Assembly (NCBI GenBank): GCA_004376055.2
Contig: CP049016.1
Coordinates: forward strand, 1,488,001 to 1,552,000
Direction: 5' to 3'
DNA: 64,000 nucleotides
Source: Nitrospirales bacterium LBB_01
Lineage (GTDB): Bacteria > Nitrospirota > Thermodesulfovibrionia > Thermodesulfovibrionales > Magnetobacteriaceae
In this document: piece after piece, positions 28,355 to 32,321 of the stretch
Numbering within the stretch: position 1 is the first letter of the stretch
How the letters are laid out: every line of letters begins with the position of its first letter
Notes under the pieces: generated by a model
Seen by the model: only the letters and a program-made list of their open reading frames with translations
What the model was told of the DNA's origin: nothing
Database searches by the model: none
Position numbers and translations under genes: made by a program

Positions 28355-29077
28355 ATGTTGACACTTGATTTCATTAAAGATATAAAAATATATCAAAGAA
28401 AGAGCGGGTACAGGTTTTCCGTAGATGCGCTGTTGCTTAGTGATTTTGTAAGGGCTGGCATTAATACAAAGTTAGTAGCCGATTTTGGCGCAGGCTCAGG
28501 GATTATTGGAATTCTGCTTGCCAAGAAATTTACAAAACCCCGAGTTCACCTTGTAGATATTCAGGAGGATTTATCGGCGCTTGCTAAAAAAAATGTTGAA
28601 ATGAACTCCCTTAATGACAACATCACTGTTCACACACTTGATGTTAGAAAAGTAAACGGATATTTTAGTCAAAACAGTTTTGACATCGTCGTTTCAAACC
28701 CCCCATTTCGCAGGCCGGTTACCGGTATGACTTGCCCAGACACTGAAAAAGCAATCGCAAGACATGAGATTAAAGTCACATTTAACGATCTTGTTGACTC
28801 AGCTTTTTACATGCTTAAAGGCAAGGGGAAATTTGTCTTTATATACCACCCTGCCAGATTTGTTGAAACCATAGAGACCCTTAGGAATAATAAATTTGAG
28901 CCTAAACGGATACGATTTATACATTCAAACACGGAAACTGAGGCAAAAATGTTTTTAATGGAGGCTGTTAAAGAGGGAAAGCCCGAGATTATAATTGAAC
29001 CCCCTCTTTTTCTCTATGAAAAACAAGGAGTTTATACCTCAGAGGCTCTTTCAATTATTGGAAAGACGATTCTTTAA
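28355..29077 (+). CDS. TrmN6-like tRNA (adenine-N6)-methyltransferase
   Basis: 240 residues. A SAM-binding motif (VADFGAGSGIIGILLAK), an acidic ligand strand (VHLVDIQ) and the N6-adenine catalytic motif SNPPF are seen. The start (IKDIKIYQRKSGYRFSVDALLLSDF) is typical of the YfiC/TrmN6 family that methylates A37 of tRNA1(Val). Other members act on unknown RNAs, so the substrate is a family-level guess. It may be cotranscribed with the upstream GGDEF-EAL gene. Confidence 0.85.
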   Translation: MLTLDFIKDIKIYQRKSGYRFSVDALLLSDFVRAGINTKLVADFGAGSGIIGILLAKKFTKPRVHLVDIQEDLSALAKKNVEMNSLNDNITVHTLDVRKVNGYFSQNSFDIVVSNPPFRRPVTGMTCPDTEKAIARHEIKVTFNDLVDSAFYMLKGKGKFVFIYHPARFVETIETLRNNKFEPKRIRFIHSNTETEAKMFLMEAVKEGKPEIIIEPPLFLYEKQGVYTSEALSIIGKTIL

Positions 29078-29351
29078 GCTATTCTTACTGAATCTTTGTT
29101 TTTTTTATAAATTTTTTAAACCACTAAACCTTTTGTTCAATAGATGTGTCTAAGCATAGAGAGGTTTAATTTTATGGCTTTACTAACACCTTATTAAATA
29201 ATCTCAAAGGATGTTTGTATTGTAAATAAGTAAGCTGTAGGTTTTGTAAAAGAAGTTGTCAGTATAATTTTTTTTTAGATGAAGTGTATGTTGACTTATC
29301 TGTGATTAATGTTACATGCTGTTGAATAGGAAAATTTAAAAGGGAGGGAAT

Positions 29352-30140
29352 ATGTTTGACTTAACATTTAAGCGTAGGAGAGGAGTAATCAGTGGCGTGT
29401 ATATTTTTTTGCTGTTTTTTGCTGTGTGCATTCTCATAGCACATAGTGCTTATGCGGCAGACAACGGGAAAAAACTATACGAGGATCGTTGTATGATTTG
29501 TCACGGAACAAAAGGCGACGGGAAAGGGCATGTAATCACTTTGCCTCGTTATGAGAGATTCGGTAAAATATGGACAGTTAAACCGAGGGACTTTACAACT
29601 GGCACATTCAAGTTTCGCACCACTCCATCAGGTTGTCTGCCAACCGAGCAGAACCTTGTCAATATTGTTGAAAACGGTATCCCTAAGGCTTATATGCCTT
29701 CAAATGCCGACCTTACATCCAGTGAGACCAAAGCGATTATCGATTATATAAAGACGTTTTCTACTGTGTGGAAAGACAGTCCCAACGACAGCTCCTGCGC
29801 TCCGATTGGTGTAAGTAGACCATCCTACGTCAGCACTGAGGAGTCCGCAGCCAAAGGGAAACAGTTATGGGAAAAGATGAAGTGCTGGGAGTGCCACGGT
29901 CAAGAGGGTAGAGGTGACGGCCCAAAATCCAAAGAAATAAAGGACGACTGGGGTGATCCAGTTCTGCCGTTTGACTTTACATCGTGCGCTTCAAAGTTCA
30001 CATTTAGTCCTGAGAAGGCATACATCGCATACACAACCGGCCTCAATGGCTCCGGTATGCCGTCCTATCAGGATACTCTGAACGAAGAGCAGAGGTGGAA
30101 TCTTGTCTCATATACCCTAAAGCTCATGGGGAAACTATAG
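29352..30140 (+). CDS. Periplasmic diheme c-type cytochrome
   Basis: 262 residues. A signal peptide (YIFLLFFAVCILIAHSAYA) directs it to the periplasm. Two heme sites are present, CMICH (about residue 47) and CWECH (about residue 180), each followed by a cytochrome-c-like segment (GTKGDGKG; GQEGRGDGPKS). Met axial ligands are plausible in AYMPSN and SGMPSY. It lies 32 bases upstream of the fused cytochrome/barrel gene and has a good site (GGGAGGG). The likely role is electron transfer between inner-membrane carriers and the outer-membrane protein; this is inferred from heme sites and gene order. Confidence 0.85.
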   Translation: MFDLTFKRRRGVISGVYIFLLFFAVCILIAHSAYAADNGKKLYEDRCMICHGTKGDGKGHVITLPRYERFGKIWTVKPRDFTTGTFKFRTTPSGCLPTEQNLVNIVENGIPKAYMPSNADLTSSETKAIIDYIKTFSTVWKDSPNDSSCAPIGVSRPSYVSTEESAAKGKQLWEKMKCWECHGQEGRGDGPKSKEIKDDWGDPVLPFDFTSCASKFTFSPEKAYIAYTTGLNGSGMPSYQDTLNEEQRWNLVSYTLKLMGKL

Positions 30141-30172
30141 TGAAGAATCTATATAATCTACGGAGGGAAACC

Positions 30173-31573
30173 ATGTTTAAATATAATAAAATATGTTTGT
30201 CCTTATTAGCGGTTGCGTTGTTTATTGTAACGCTACTATTGCCGCTGGATAAATCCTATGCGCTGCCGAGTTTTGCGCGTCAAACTGGACTGAATTGCTA
30301 CAACTGTCACACAATATGGCCGGAATTAACGCCTATGGGGCGCGCCTTTAAGTTAACCGGCTATGTGCAAAGCACAAGCGATAGGCCATACGAACCATTC
30401 CCTCCTTTGTCCGTAGGAGGCGTAATATCCTATACCGGAGGTGATCAAGCCGGAGGTCTAACAAATGGGATATCTCCTTTTGACAATGCCGACCATAAAT
30501 ATACTGACAAGACGAATGCCCTGCAGGAATTTAATGCGTTTTACGGCGGTAGAATTTATGGTGATTTTGGCGCTTTTTTACAGGGCACATTTGATGGCGT
30601 TGCAAAAAAAGTTATTTTGGATATGGCAGATATTCGTTACGCTAAAAGCGATGCCACGCTGTTTGGTAAACCACTCGTGTTTGGAGTTACAGTCAATAAC
30701 CGGCCTTCAATACAGGATGTGTGGAACAGTACACCGGTATGGGGCTTTCCTTACGCAAGCTCATCCGTGGCATCAACCCCTTCAGCCGCCACAGTCATAG
30801 ACGGTGGACTGGATACGCAAGTGGGCGGTGCTGGCGTCTATGCTTTATGGGATAATTTAATATACGTGGAGGGCACTCTATATCGTACAACCGAAAATAG
30901 TATTACAAAACCTCTTGGTGCCGGTAACCCTACGGACACCATAGTGAGAGGCGTTGCCCCGTACTGGCGCGTTGCTTTAGAAAAACAATGCGGTCAGGAG
31001 CACTCTTTTATGGTTGGCACGTATGGAATTGTCTCTAATCTTTATCCCGGAGGTTTTGCCGAGGGACCTACCGACAGATACACAGATATCGCTTTTGATG
31101 CCCAGTATCAGTACATTGCACCTCGGCATGTACTGACCACAGCAGCCACATGGATTCATGAAAAGCAGAATTTAGACGCCACGTATGCGCTTGGGGGTTC
31201 AGTAAATAATGTTAACTATCTGAACACATTCAAGGCACGCATAAGCTATGCCTATAGAAGCAAAATTGGTACAGTAGGAGGGACTGTAGGCTATTTCAAC
31301 ACATCCGGCAGTTCTGACTATGCACTCGTAGATGACGGTACCGGCACTGGCACATTAGTAGCTACAGGGCTTTATGCTGGCAACGCTTCGGGGACTCCCA
31401 ACAGCAGCGGTGTCATATTGGAGGCAAATTATCTGCCGATAAAGTATGTTAAACTTGGCGTACAATACACCATTTATGATAAATTCAATGGCTCACGTAC
31501 AAACTATGACGGCAATGGCACTGATGCCTCCAGCAATAACACGATTTATCTGTACACGCGAATCATGTATTAG
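30173..31573 (+). CDS. Fused monoheme cytochrome/outer-membrane barrel protein (Cyc2-like candidate)
   Basis: 466 residues from ATG at 30173 (GGAGGG 6 bases upstream); the longer frame from 30095 overlaps the previous gene and lacks a signal. A signal peptide ends about residue 30 (KSYA). The mature start carries one heme motif CYNCH (42-46) in the stretch FARQTGLNCYNCHTIWPELT, followed by GRAFKLTGYV. The remaining about 400 residues are alternating strands rich in Gly, Tyr and Thr ending in an aromatic residue (YLYTRIMY), as in outer-membrane barrels. This layout matches fused cytochrome-porins related to the Cyc2 iron oxidase family. That it oxidises Fe(II) is a hypothesis. Confidence 0.7.
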   Translation: MFKYNKICLSLLAVALFIVTLLLPLDKSYALPSFARQTGLNCYNCHTIWPELTPMGRAFKLTGYVQSTSDRPYEPFPPLSVGGVISYTGGDQAGGLTNGISPFDNADHKYTDKTNALQEFNAFYGGRIYGDFGAFLQGTFDGVAKKVILDMADIRYAKSDATLFGKPLVFGVTVNNRPSIQDVWNSTPVWGFPYASSSVASTPSAATVIDGGLDTQVGGAGVYALWDNLIYVEGTLYRTTENSITKPLGAGNPTDTIVRGVAPYWRVALEKQCGQEHSFMVGTYGIVSNLYPGGFAEGPTDRYTDIAFDAQYQYIAPRHVLTTAATWIHEKQNLDATYALGGSVNNVNYLNTFKARISYAYRSKIGTVGGTVGYFNTSGSSDYALVDDGTGTGTLVATGLYAGNASGTPNSSGVILEANYLPIKYVKLGVQYTIYDKFNGSRTNYDGNGTDASSNNTIYLYTRIMY

Positions 31574-31598: not shown

Positions 31599-31628
31599 CA
31601 CCCCACTGCTTTGCAGTGGAGTGTTGTA
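31599..31628 (+). terminator. Terminator after the cytochrome/barrel gene
   Basis: CACCCCACTGC-TTT-GCAGTGGAGTG forms an 11-bp stem with one mismatch and a 3-base loop, followed by TTGTATTT. It lies 26 bases past the stop of the fused cytochrome. Confidence 0.55.
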
Positions 31629-31694
31629 TTTACAGGAACTTTATGAGGGGTCATGTTATTATAAACCTATAAATATAAAAAGACTGAGGTGAGA

Positions 31695-32321
31695 ATGGAG
31701 ACTGTTAAGTTAAATTGCTGGGAGTTCAATCGGTGTCAAAGAGAGGTTGGTGGTAAGAAGGCAGAGGAGTTGGGCGTGTGTCCTGTTCCGTTAGAAAGTC
31801 GTCTGGATGGATTTAATGGAGGAGTGAATGCCGGCAGATCGTGCTGGGCAATAGCAGGTACTCTTTGCGGCGGTAAGCCAAGGGGCACACTGGCTCAAAA
31901 ATTAAAGGACTGTACGCTGTGTAAGTTTCATCAATTAGTCATAGGTGAGGAGGGGGACAGTTATACAAGCGTTGCCAAATTTCTAAAGAAATCCAGAACT
32001 GATGAAAAGAAAAATATTTTCAAGGAGCCAAGTTTTTTACAGCATGTTTACTCAAAGAGCAAACTGGCGTCTGAAGACAGTGTTGATTCTTTGTATATAA
32101 CACTCCTAATAGCATGGACAAGCCTTTGTCCGTCTATTAGTATGCTGGAGGGGTCAAAGAGACTTTGCAAGGATGATCTTGTTGATGAGTTGATGATTAT
32201 AGACGCTGTTGCTGATATGCCAAATACAAGGGCTACCAGATTGTTTTTTAAGACAATATTTAAATCTATTGGTAAACAGATCACTAATTATTTTGCACCG
32301 TTACATACTATGACCCAATAG
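31695..32321 (+). CDS. Two-CW domain protein of unknown function
   Basis: 208 residues from ATG at 31695 (GAGGTGAG just upstream; GTG at 31689 is the alternative). The N-terminal 80 residues hold two CW motifs and paired cysteines: NCWEFNRCQREV, GVCPVP, RSCWAIAGTLCGGK, CTLCKFHQLV. This is the same domain as at the C-terminus of the MerR protein at 7220-7648. Eight cysteines could bind a metal or cluster. The C-terminal 125 residues are helical and unfamiliar. It stands alone, convergent with the UDG operon. Confidence 0.65.
   Translation: METVKLNCWEFNRCQREVGGKKAEELGVCPVPLESRLDGFNGGVNAGRSCWAIAGTLCGGKPRGTLAQKLKDCTLCKFHQLVIGEEGDSYTSVAKFLKKSRTDEKKNIFKEPSFLQHVYSKSKLASEDSVDSLYITLLIAWTSLCPSISMLEGSKRLCKDDLVDELMIIDAVADMPNTRATRLFFKTIFKSIGKQITNYFAPLHTMTQ

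Follow-up and report, generated by a model that had tools for sequence, protein, structure and literature searches.

Can a magnetotactic bacterium of the phylum Nitrospirota take up electrons from iron outside the cell? The question was raised by two adjoining genes at positions 29352–31573 of the window (the whole stretch of DNA that was analyzed, 64,000 nucleotides), which the first-pass annotation had read as a periplasmic diheme cytochrome preceding a heme-porin of the Cyc2 type. The window represents positions 1488001–1552000 of a closed genome of 3,273,455 bp, which is almost certainly that of Ca. Magnetomonas plexicatena LBB01 (Magnetobacteriaceae). LBB01 has a complete circular chromosome (3.27 Mbp, 42.0% G+C), encodes NarGHI and NosZ, and was predicted to oxidize sulfur, to reduce nitrate and N2O, and to fix carbon via the Wood-Ljungdahl pathway (PMC9376291); the text of that paper mentions neither cytochromes nor Cyc2. 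Cyc2 is also unmentioned in the literature examined on single magnetotactic Nitrospirota cells.

Both open reading frames begin and end exactly where they had first been placed (29352–30140 and 30173–31573); they are separated by 32 bp, and a strong Shine-Dalgarno sequence (GGAGGGA) lies just 5′ of each. Because relatives encode full-length homologs (64% identity) with the diheme gene directly upstream, the gene pair is not a chance reading. The features of the locus are as follows:

28355–29077: methyltransferase gene flanking the pair
29352–30140, plus strand: exported diheme cytochrome c, 262 aa (two PF00034 stretches, match to 6h5l_B, conserved adjacency)
29490–29504, plus strand: heme motif 1 of the diheme cytochrome, CMICH, residues 47–51 (from the translation)
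29883–29897, plus strand: heme motif 2 of the diheme cytochrome, CWECH, residues 178–182 (from the translation)
30173–31573, plus strand: putative Cyc2-type fused monoheme cytochrome-porin, 466 aa (motif, AlphaFold2 model, porin fold, homologs)
30173–30262, plus strand: probable Sec signal peptide of Cyc2, about residues 1–30, ending KSYA|LP (by eye)
30260–30328, plus strand: Cyc2 signature ALPSFARQT-GLN-CYNCH-TIW-PEL, residues 30–52 (translation compared with the consensus in PMC8406198)
30296–30310, plus strand: heme c site CYNCH of Cyc2, residues 42–46, within the signature
30407–31570, plus strand: predicted 16-stranded outer-membrane β-barrel, residues 79–466, with terminal Tyr (DSSP on the model, OmpC match)
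31603–31619, plus strand: stem-loop 3′ of cyc2, possibly a weak terminator (terminator scan, folding)
31689–32321: cysteine-rich 210-aa open reading frame flanking the pair

A terminator at 31599 had been proposed to close the unit. A stable hairpin is indeed present at 31603–31619 (CCACTGC-TTT-GCAGTGG; fold z −3.6), but its function as a terminator is only plausible, given a weak T tail and four terminator-like sites in a scan for which 2.5 were expected. Scanning the diheme-cyc2 unit for promoters yielded sites not above the chance number.

Judging from its sequence, the 466-aa protein is very probably a member of the Cyc2 family. Its signal-like N-terminal segment ends in KSYA-LP and is followed at once by ALPSFARQTGLNCYNCHTIWPELTPMGRAFKLTGY; ∼390 strand-like residues come after the heme segment, the last one being Tyr. 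By eye, the hydrophobic segment and the SYA cleavage site are typical of a signal peptide; together with the C-terminal aromatic residue, they would be compatible with a putative outer-membrane location. Cyc2 proteins are defined by the motif AxPxFAR[Q/K][T/Y] preceding CxxCH, by PxL on its other side, and by a 16-stranded porin (Keffer et al., PMC8406198). The window protein contains ALPSFARQT (residues 30–38) shortly before CYNCH (residues 42–46) and PEL at residues 50–52, and a single CxxCH within 466 aa agrees with the one heme c and the length of at least 365 aa of the family. Motif, single CxxCH, and PxL are shared with Cyc2 of Acidithiobacillus ferrooxidans, Cyc2-PV1 of Mariprofundus, and Cyt572 of Leptospirillum (PMC8406198, PMC7029218); length, the 16-stranded porin (here predicted), and a periplasmic cytochrome partner nearby are further likenesses to known Cyc2 proteins. 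Across 76 full-length sequences, the motif is present in 75 and the whole string including PxL in 71, with A30, P32, F34, A35, R36, Q37, C42, C45, and H46 invariant. Outside CxxCH, and leaving the start Met aside, conservation of a His or Met nowhere exceeds 85% of the 76 rows. Of the 76 proteins, 53 end in Phe and 14 in Tyr. The signature had initially been taken to mark a distinct clade; this was wrong, because FARQTG matches the published consensus (PMC8406198) and is thus the Cyc2 family's own signature.

The barrel was addressed by structure prediction, which the first-pass annotation had called for. AlphaFold2, supplied with the alignment of 76 sequences, returned exactly 16 long strands between residues 79 and 465 (pLDDT 88.2, pTM 0.86), a porin of the strand number known for Cyc2, in a predicted model as opposed to a solved structure. 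The matches of this model in Foldseek are 16-stranded porins, for example, OmpF, OmpC, and OprP; Z is about 22 for OmpC and OmpF, and alignment to OmpC (2j1n) with VIA-align gave a Z of 22.7 and an rmsd of 3.4 over 297 residues. Searching the PDB by sequence retrieved no solved Cyc2 structure, no Pfam or NCBIfam model names the protein, and Pfam has none for its 75 homologs either. The initial description (one N-terminal heme, a barrel-like body ending in Tyr, the class of fused cytochrome-porins) is borne out by the family motif, the single CxxCH, and the model. Of the two outcomes that the first-pass annotation had named as refuting, lack of a predicted barrel did not occur.

Where within its family the protein belongs was examined phylogenetically, again following the first-pass annotation. 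Cyc2 of the window groups first with Magnetobacteriaceae (SH-aLRT 100) and then with other Nitrospirota (98), in a clade with Magnetominusculus and acid-mine-type Nitrospirota; its nearest family records include Ca. Magnetominusculus sp. LBB02 and nDJH bins. Next out is a mixed group of Acidobacteriota, Myxococcota, and others, and the whole grouping is nested inside a large clade of the type FARQTG...CHxxFPELTPFGR together with Burkholderiaceae, Sphaerotilaceae, Methylocapsa, and Sulfurospirillum, which also holds a protein from an A. ferrooxidans plasmid. Long, supported branches separate it from three FQHFP-type sequences, which we take to resemble the Cluster 1 Cyc2 of neutrophiles. The FARKY-type proteins of Leptospirillaceae-like genomes (recognized by a Cyt579 model scoring over its curated cut-off) are located on another, very long branch, and long branches limit the trust in such placements. 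Because the window protein, unlike known Cyc2 proteins, is set apart from both the FQHFP-type and the Leptospirillaceae-type groups, it likely belongs to Cluster 2 (that of A. ferrooxidans), an assignment by elimination in trees that covered the FQHFP-type sequences, the proteins of the Leptospirillaceae-like genomes, and the plasmid-borne A. ferrooxidans protein. The Leptospirillaceae-like genomes (L176, L177, L181, and L182) each encode one or two heme-porins of the FARKY/FSRxY type, 550–560 aa in length, which probably represent the Cyt572 group.

The upstream gene encodes a 262-aa protein with a basic, hydrophobic, export-signal-like N-terminus ending in SAYA-AD, two cytochrome-c stretches (PF00034, E 1e-21), and two CxxCH motifs, as expected for the diheme cytochrome that had been proposed to precede the heme-porin gene. 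It matches PDB entry 6h5l_B with an E of 1.3e-47 over residues 36–259, with both heme sites aligned. From its description, we infer that this chain is Kustc0457 of the anammox bacterium Kuenenia, the diheme partner of the HAO-like protein Kustc0458 (PMC6423088); homology to Kustc0457 extends over both heme domains. Kustc0457 pairs with an HAO-like protein, whereas its homolog in the window adjoins cyc2 and not a gene for an HAO-like octaheme protein; it is another copy in the window genome that has an octaheme neighbor. A genome search recovered seven members of this family, the window copy included; the other six are situated as follows:

beside NosZ (TIGR04244, 814 bits versus a cut-off of 625)
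beside a type II DMSO/NarG-like pair of alpha and beta subunits
beside a COX1/COX2 heme-copper oxidase
beside a cytochrome b/Rieske/hexaheme unit
at 2.304 Mb, beside an octaheme HAO/HDH-like cytochrome
as a fusion within a bd-like oxidase cluster (Cyt_bd_oxida_I protein)

With each of the seven beside a different respiratory enzyme (loci L141–L146 and the window), the family looks like a standard electron-docking subunit.

In other genomes, a diheme gene is present directly upstream of cyc2 at five loci (LBB02, nDJH8bin6, two loci of nDJH13bin3, and nDJH14bin9). In the diheme tree, the window copy and five Cyc2-linked copies of relatives form one clade (99/97), from which all other copies are excluded, also the six others of the window genome. 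Because the Cyc2-linked copies stand apart in a clade of their own, the dihemes appear to be dedicated to one enzyme each, that of the window to Cyc2. Conserved adjacency and co-phylogeny together make a putative role of the diheme protein as electron partner of Cyc2 well supported. At a tandem arrangement of two cyc2 genes in genome G007 (L028:7606–10788), only the first has a diheme gene directly upstream. In the relative G006, the diheme gene and cyc2 are followed, in this order, by genes for a 242-aa protein, the bd-like oxidase, two c-type subunits, and a diheme fusion; an oxidase cluster matching that of G006 is found at 433–439 kb of the window genome. Exported proteins of 242–246 aa are encoded alongside cyc2 and also alongside the bd-like oxidase cluster (L142:1222–1953, L027:8642–9370, and L026:3987–4727), the L142 copy having a carboxypeptidase-regulatory-like domain.

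The partner is not the same throughout the family. At several loci of Nitrospirota, Myxococcota, and Acidobacteriota, a small monoheme cytochrome c is encoded directly upstream of cyc2, and in many Pseudomonadota a diheme protein of 202–229 aa is encoded downstream of it. The rus operon of A. ferrooxidans has Cyc1 (cytochrome c4) beside cyc2, a diheme periplasmic carrier like that of the window (PMC10654088). Unlike Cyc1, the window cytochrome is encoded upstream of cyc2, and a blastp comparison at E 1e-5 did not match it to the diheme proteins that Pseudomonadota encode downstream of cyc2. The partner cytochrome of Magnetobacteriaceae is another one, namely, an upstream diheme protein of the Kustc0457 type, which distinguishes the window from known Cyc2 systems.

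The pair is patchily distributed. Only one of the four genomes of the genus, that of the window, encodes the Cyc2 protein. The methyltransferase gene and the cysteine-rich open reading frame on either side of the pair are about 90 bp apart in two congeners (G002 and G003), whose DNA aligns at 80–84% on both sides with the 2.6 kb containing the pair missing. The pair is thus a presence/absence cassette, either gained by the window genome or lost by the others, and is dispensable, being absent from the other three genomes of the genus. Its G+C content is 45.8%, compared with 41.4% for the window. No mobile genes were found at its joints; the only repeat bracketing it is a two-copy, imperfect direct repeat of 22 nt (77%; at 29180 and 31570), which may be due to chance, and, with a mobile origin considered, the tree keeps Cyc2 inside its own family.

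Additional candidates for conduits are present elsewhere in the genome. A second single-heme, porin-like protein without a Pfam match but with the related motif PSYTRRYGFDCTVCH is encoded at 1727546–1729048 (L031:9546–11048), preceded by a sensor kinase and an NtrC-type regulator; such a protein is also retained by two congeners that lack the FARQTG-type Cyc2. Each of the two heme-porin genes of the window genome is followed by a gene for a cysteine-rich 210-aa protein (LNCWExNxCQREVGG...) to which Pfam assigns no domain; the two copies (window 31689–32321 and L031:11215–11841) are 86% identical. A porin of the MtrB/PioB type (PF11854, E 7e-74) is encoded at about 1985947–1989182 (L184:6947–10182) and follows two small multiheme open reading frames (with three and five CxxCH), which differ in frame and may represent an MtrA-like gene that has been split; this locus is a candidate for a second outer-membrane conduit. 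MtrAB and MtoAB are outer-membrane electron conduits as well, with a separate multiheme cytochrome, whereas the window pair comprises a fused monoheme protein without one.

How, then, might the pair function? The best explanation, and a reasonably probable one by analogy with characterized Cyc2 proteins, is oxidation of extracellular Fe(II) by Cyc2 with inward transfer of the electrons to the diheme cytochrome. The short N-terminal heme-c segment of the predicted 16-stranded outer-membrane porin would take an electron from dissolved Fe(II) at the pore and hand it inward, with heme position, substrate, and direction as in the characterized proteins. In the periplasm, the diheme cytochrome would, given conserved adjacency and co-phylogeny, accept the electrons and pass them on to the respiratory enzymes that have sister dihemes (terminal oxidases, the NarG-like enzyme, and NosZ), the final acceptors presumably being oxygen or nitrogen oxides. 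That the pair of G006 is situated directly upstream of the bd-like oxidase cluster suggests a route from Fe(II) via Cyc2, the diheme cytochrome, and the bd-like oxidase to O2. For a magnetotactic cell at the oxic-anoxic boundary, Fe(II) could thereby serve as an auxiliary donor beside sulfur. Fe(II) oxidation has been measured for one representative of each Cyc2 cluster (PMC8406198), and iron oxidation by Cluster 2 Cyc2 needs a supporting context (PMC10734462). Several observations speak against this reading. In the trees, the window Cyc2 is placed apart from the FQHFP-type sequences, which resemble the proven neutrophile cluster. Among close cultured carriers of Cyc2, Ralstonia, Trinickia, Methylocapsa, and Sulfurospirillum are, to our knowledge, not known as iron oxidizers. 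Moreover, LBB01 has been described as a sulfur oxidizer (PMC9376291), and its genus can dispense with the pair.

A second reading, which we consider rather unlikely, is a true Cyc2 inlet with another donor, such as Mn(II), a redox shuttle, or the surface of a mineral or electrode, or with another purpose, namely, clearing Fe(II) from the cell surface without energy gain. Many carriers in this clade of Cyc2 are not known iron oxidizers, and the proven activities are in other parts of the family (PMC8406198). Also, Manganitrophaceae of the same phylum oxidize Mn(II) and carry a Cyc2 for which a role as metal oxidase, supplying electrons to terminal oxidases, has been proposed; theirs is a different lineage, set beside the window Cyc2 by description and not by sequence (PMC9040806). 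Conversely, the activity measured for the family, in one representative per cluster, is Fe(II) oxidation (PMC8406198), and several of the nearest relatives appear, from the names of their records, to be bins from acid mines or groundwater.

If the conduit operated outward, from the diheme cytochrome via Cyc2 to extracellular Fe(III) or another acceptor, the MtrB/PioB porin and the two small multiheme c genes in the same genome would be in keeping with it, and porin-cytochrome systems like Mto/Mtr may conduct electrons in either direction (PMC10734462). The Cyc2 family, however, is characterized as an oxidase, and a single heme in a porin has been argued to suit dissolved Fe2+ and not minerals (PMC8406198), which renders this direction improbable. 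Even less probable is a role in magnetosome formation, with partial oxidation of Fe(II) at the surface yielding mixed-valence iron for magnetite. The genome does contain, at 2.42 Mb, a magnetosome-like cluster that encodes magnetochrome domains, but such a role is disfavored because the pair is 0.9 Mb away from this cluster and is missing from other genomes of its genus and of its family. Magnetochromes, moreover, are held to fulfill the mixed-valence iron role at the magnetosome. That the protein is an ordinary substrate porin, its CxxCH without redox function and the adjoining cytochrome gene unrelated, is hardly credible despite its going unnamed by Pfam and NCBIfam, as neither the heme site nor the motif around it varies among 76 homologs while the barrel diverges, and as a partner cytochrome adjoins repeatedly.

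The Cyc2 family itself is already known; new are a member in an organism of the LBB01 type, its conserved but unusual partner, and the location of the pair at a site left unoccupied in close relatives. The locus illustrates how patchy iron oxidation genes are within one genus, and the seven-fold use of one diheme family provides a testable picture of a Cyc2 cassette plugged into different electron chains. On the preferred reading of the pair as an Fe(II) oxidation system, it is tempting, if speculative, to suppose that magnetotactic Nitrospirota could respire extracellular Fe(II) via an exchangeable cassette of Cyc2 and diheme cytochrome, which would plug into a diheme interface that every one of their respiratory complexes uses as a standard; near relatives could then gain or lose iron oxidation with nothing else being changed. 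Magnetotactic Nitrospirota store iron in the form of magnetite and have been described as oxidizers of sulfur; with a Cyc2 pathway, iron would become a further source of energy in a group that is already important for the cycling of iron and sulfur.
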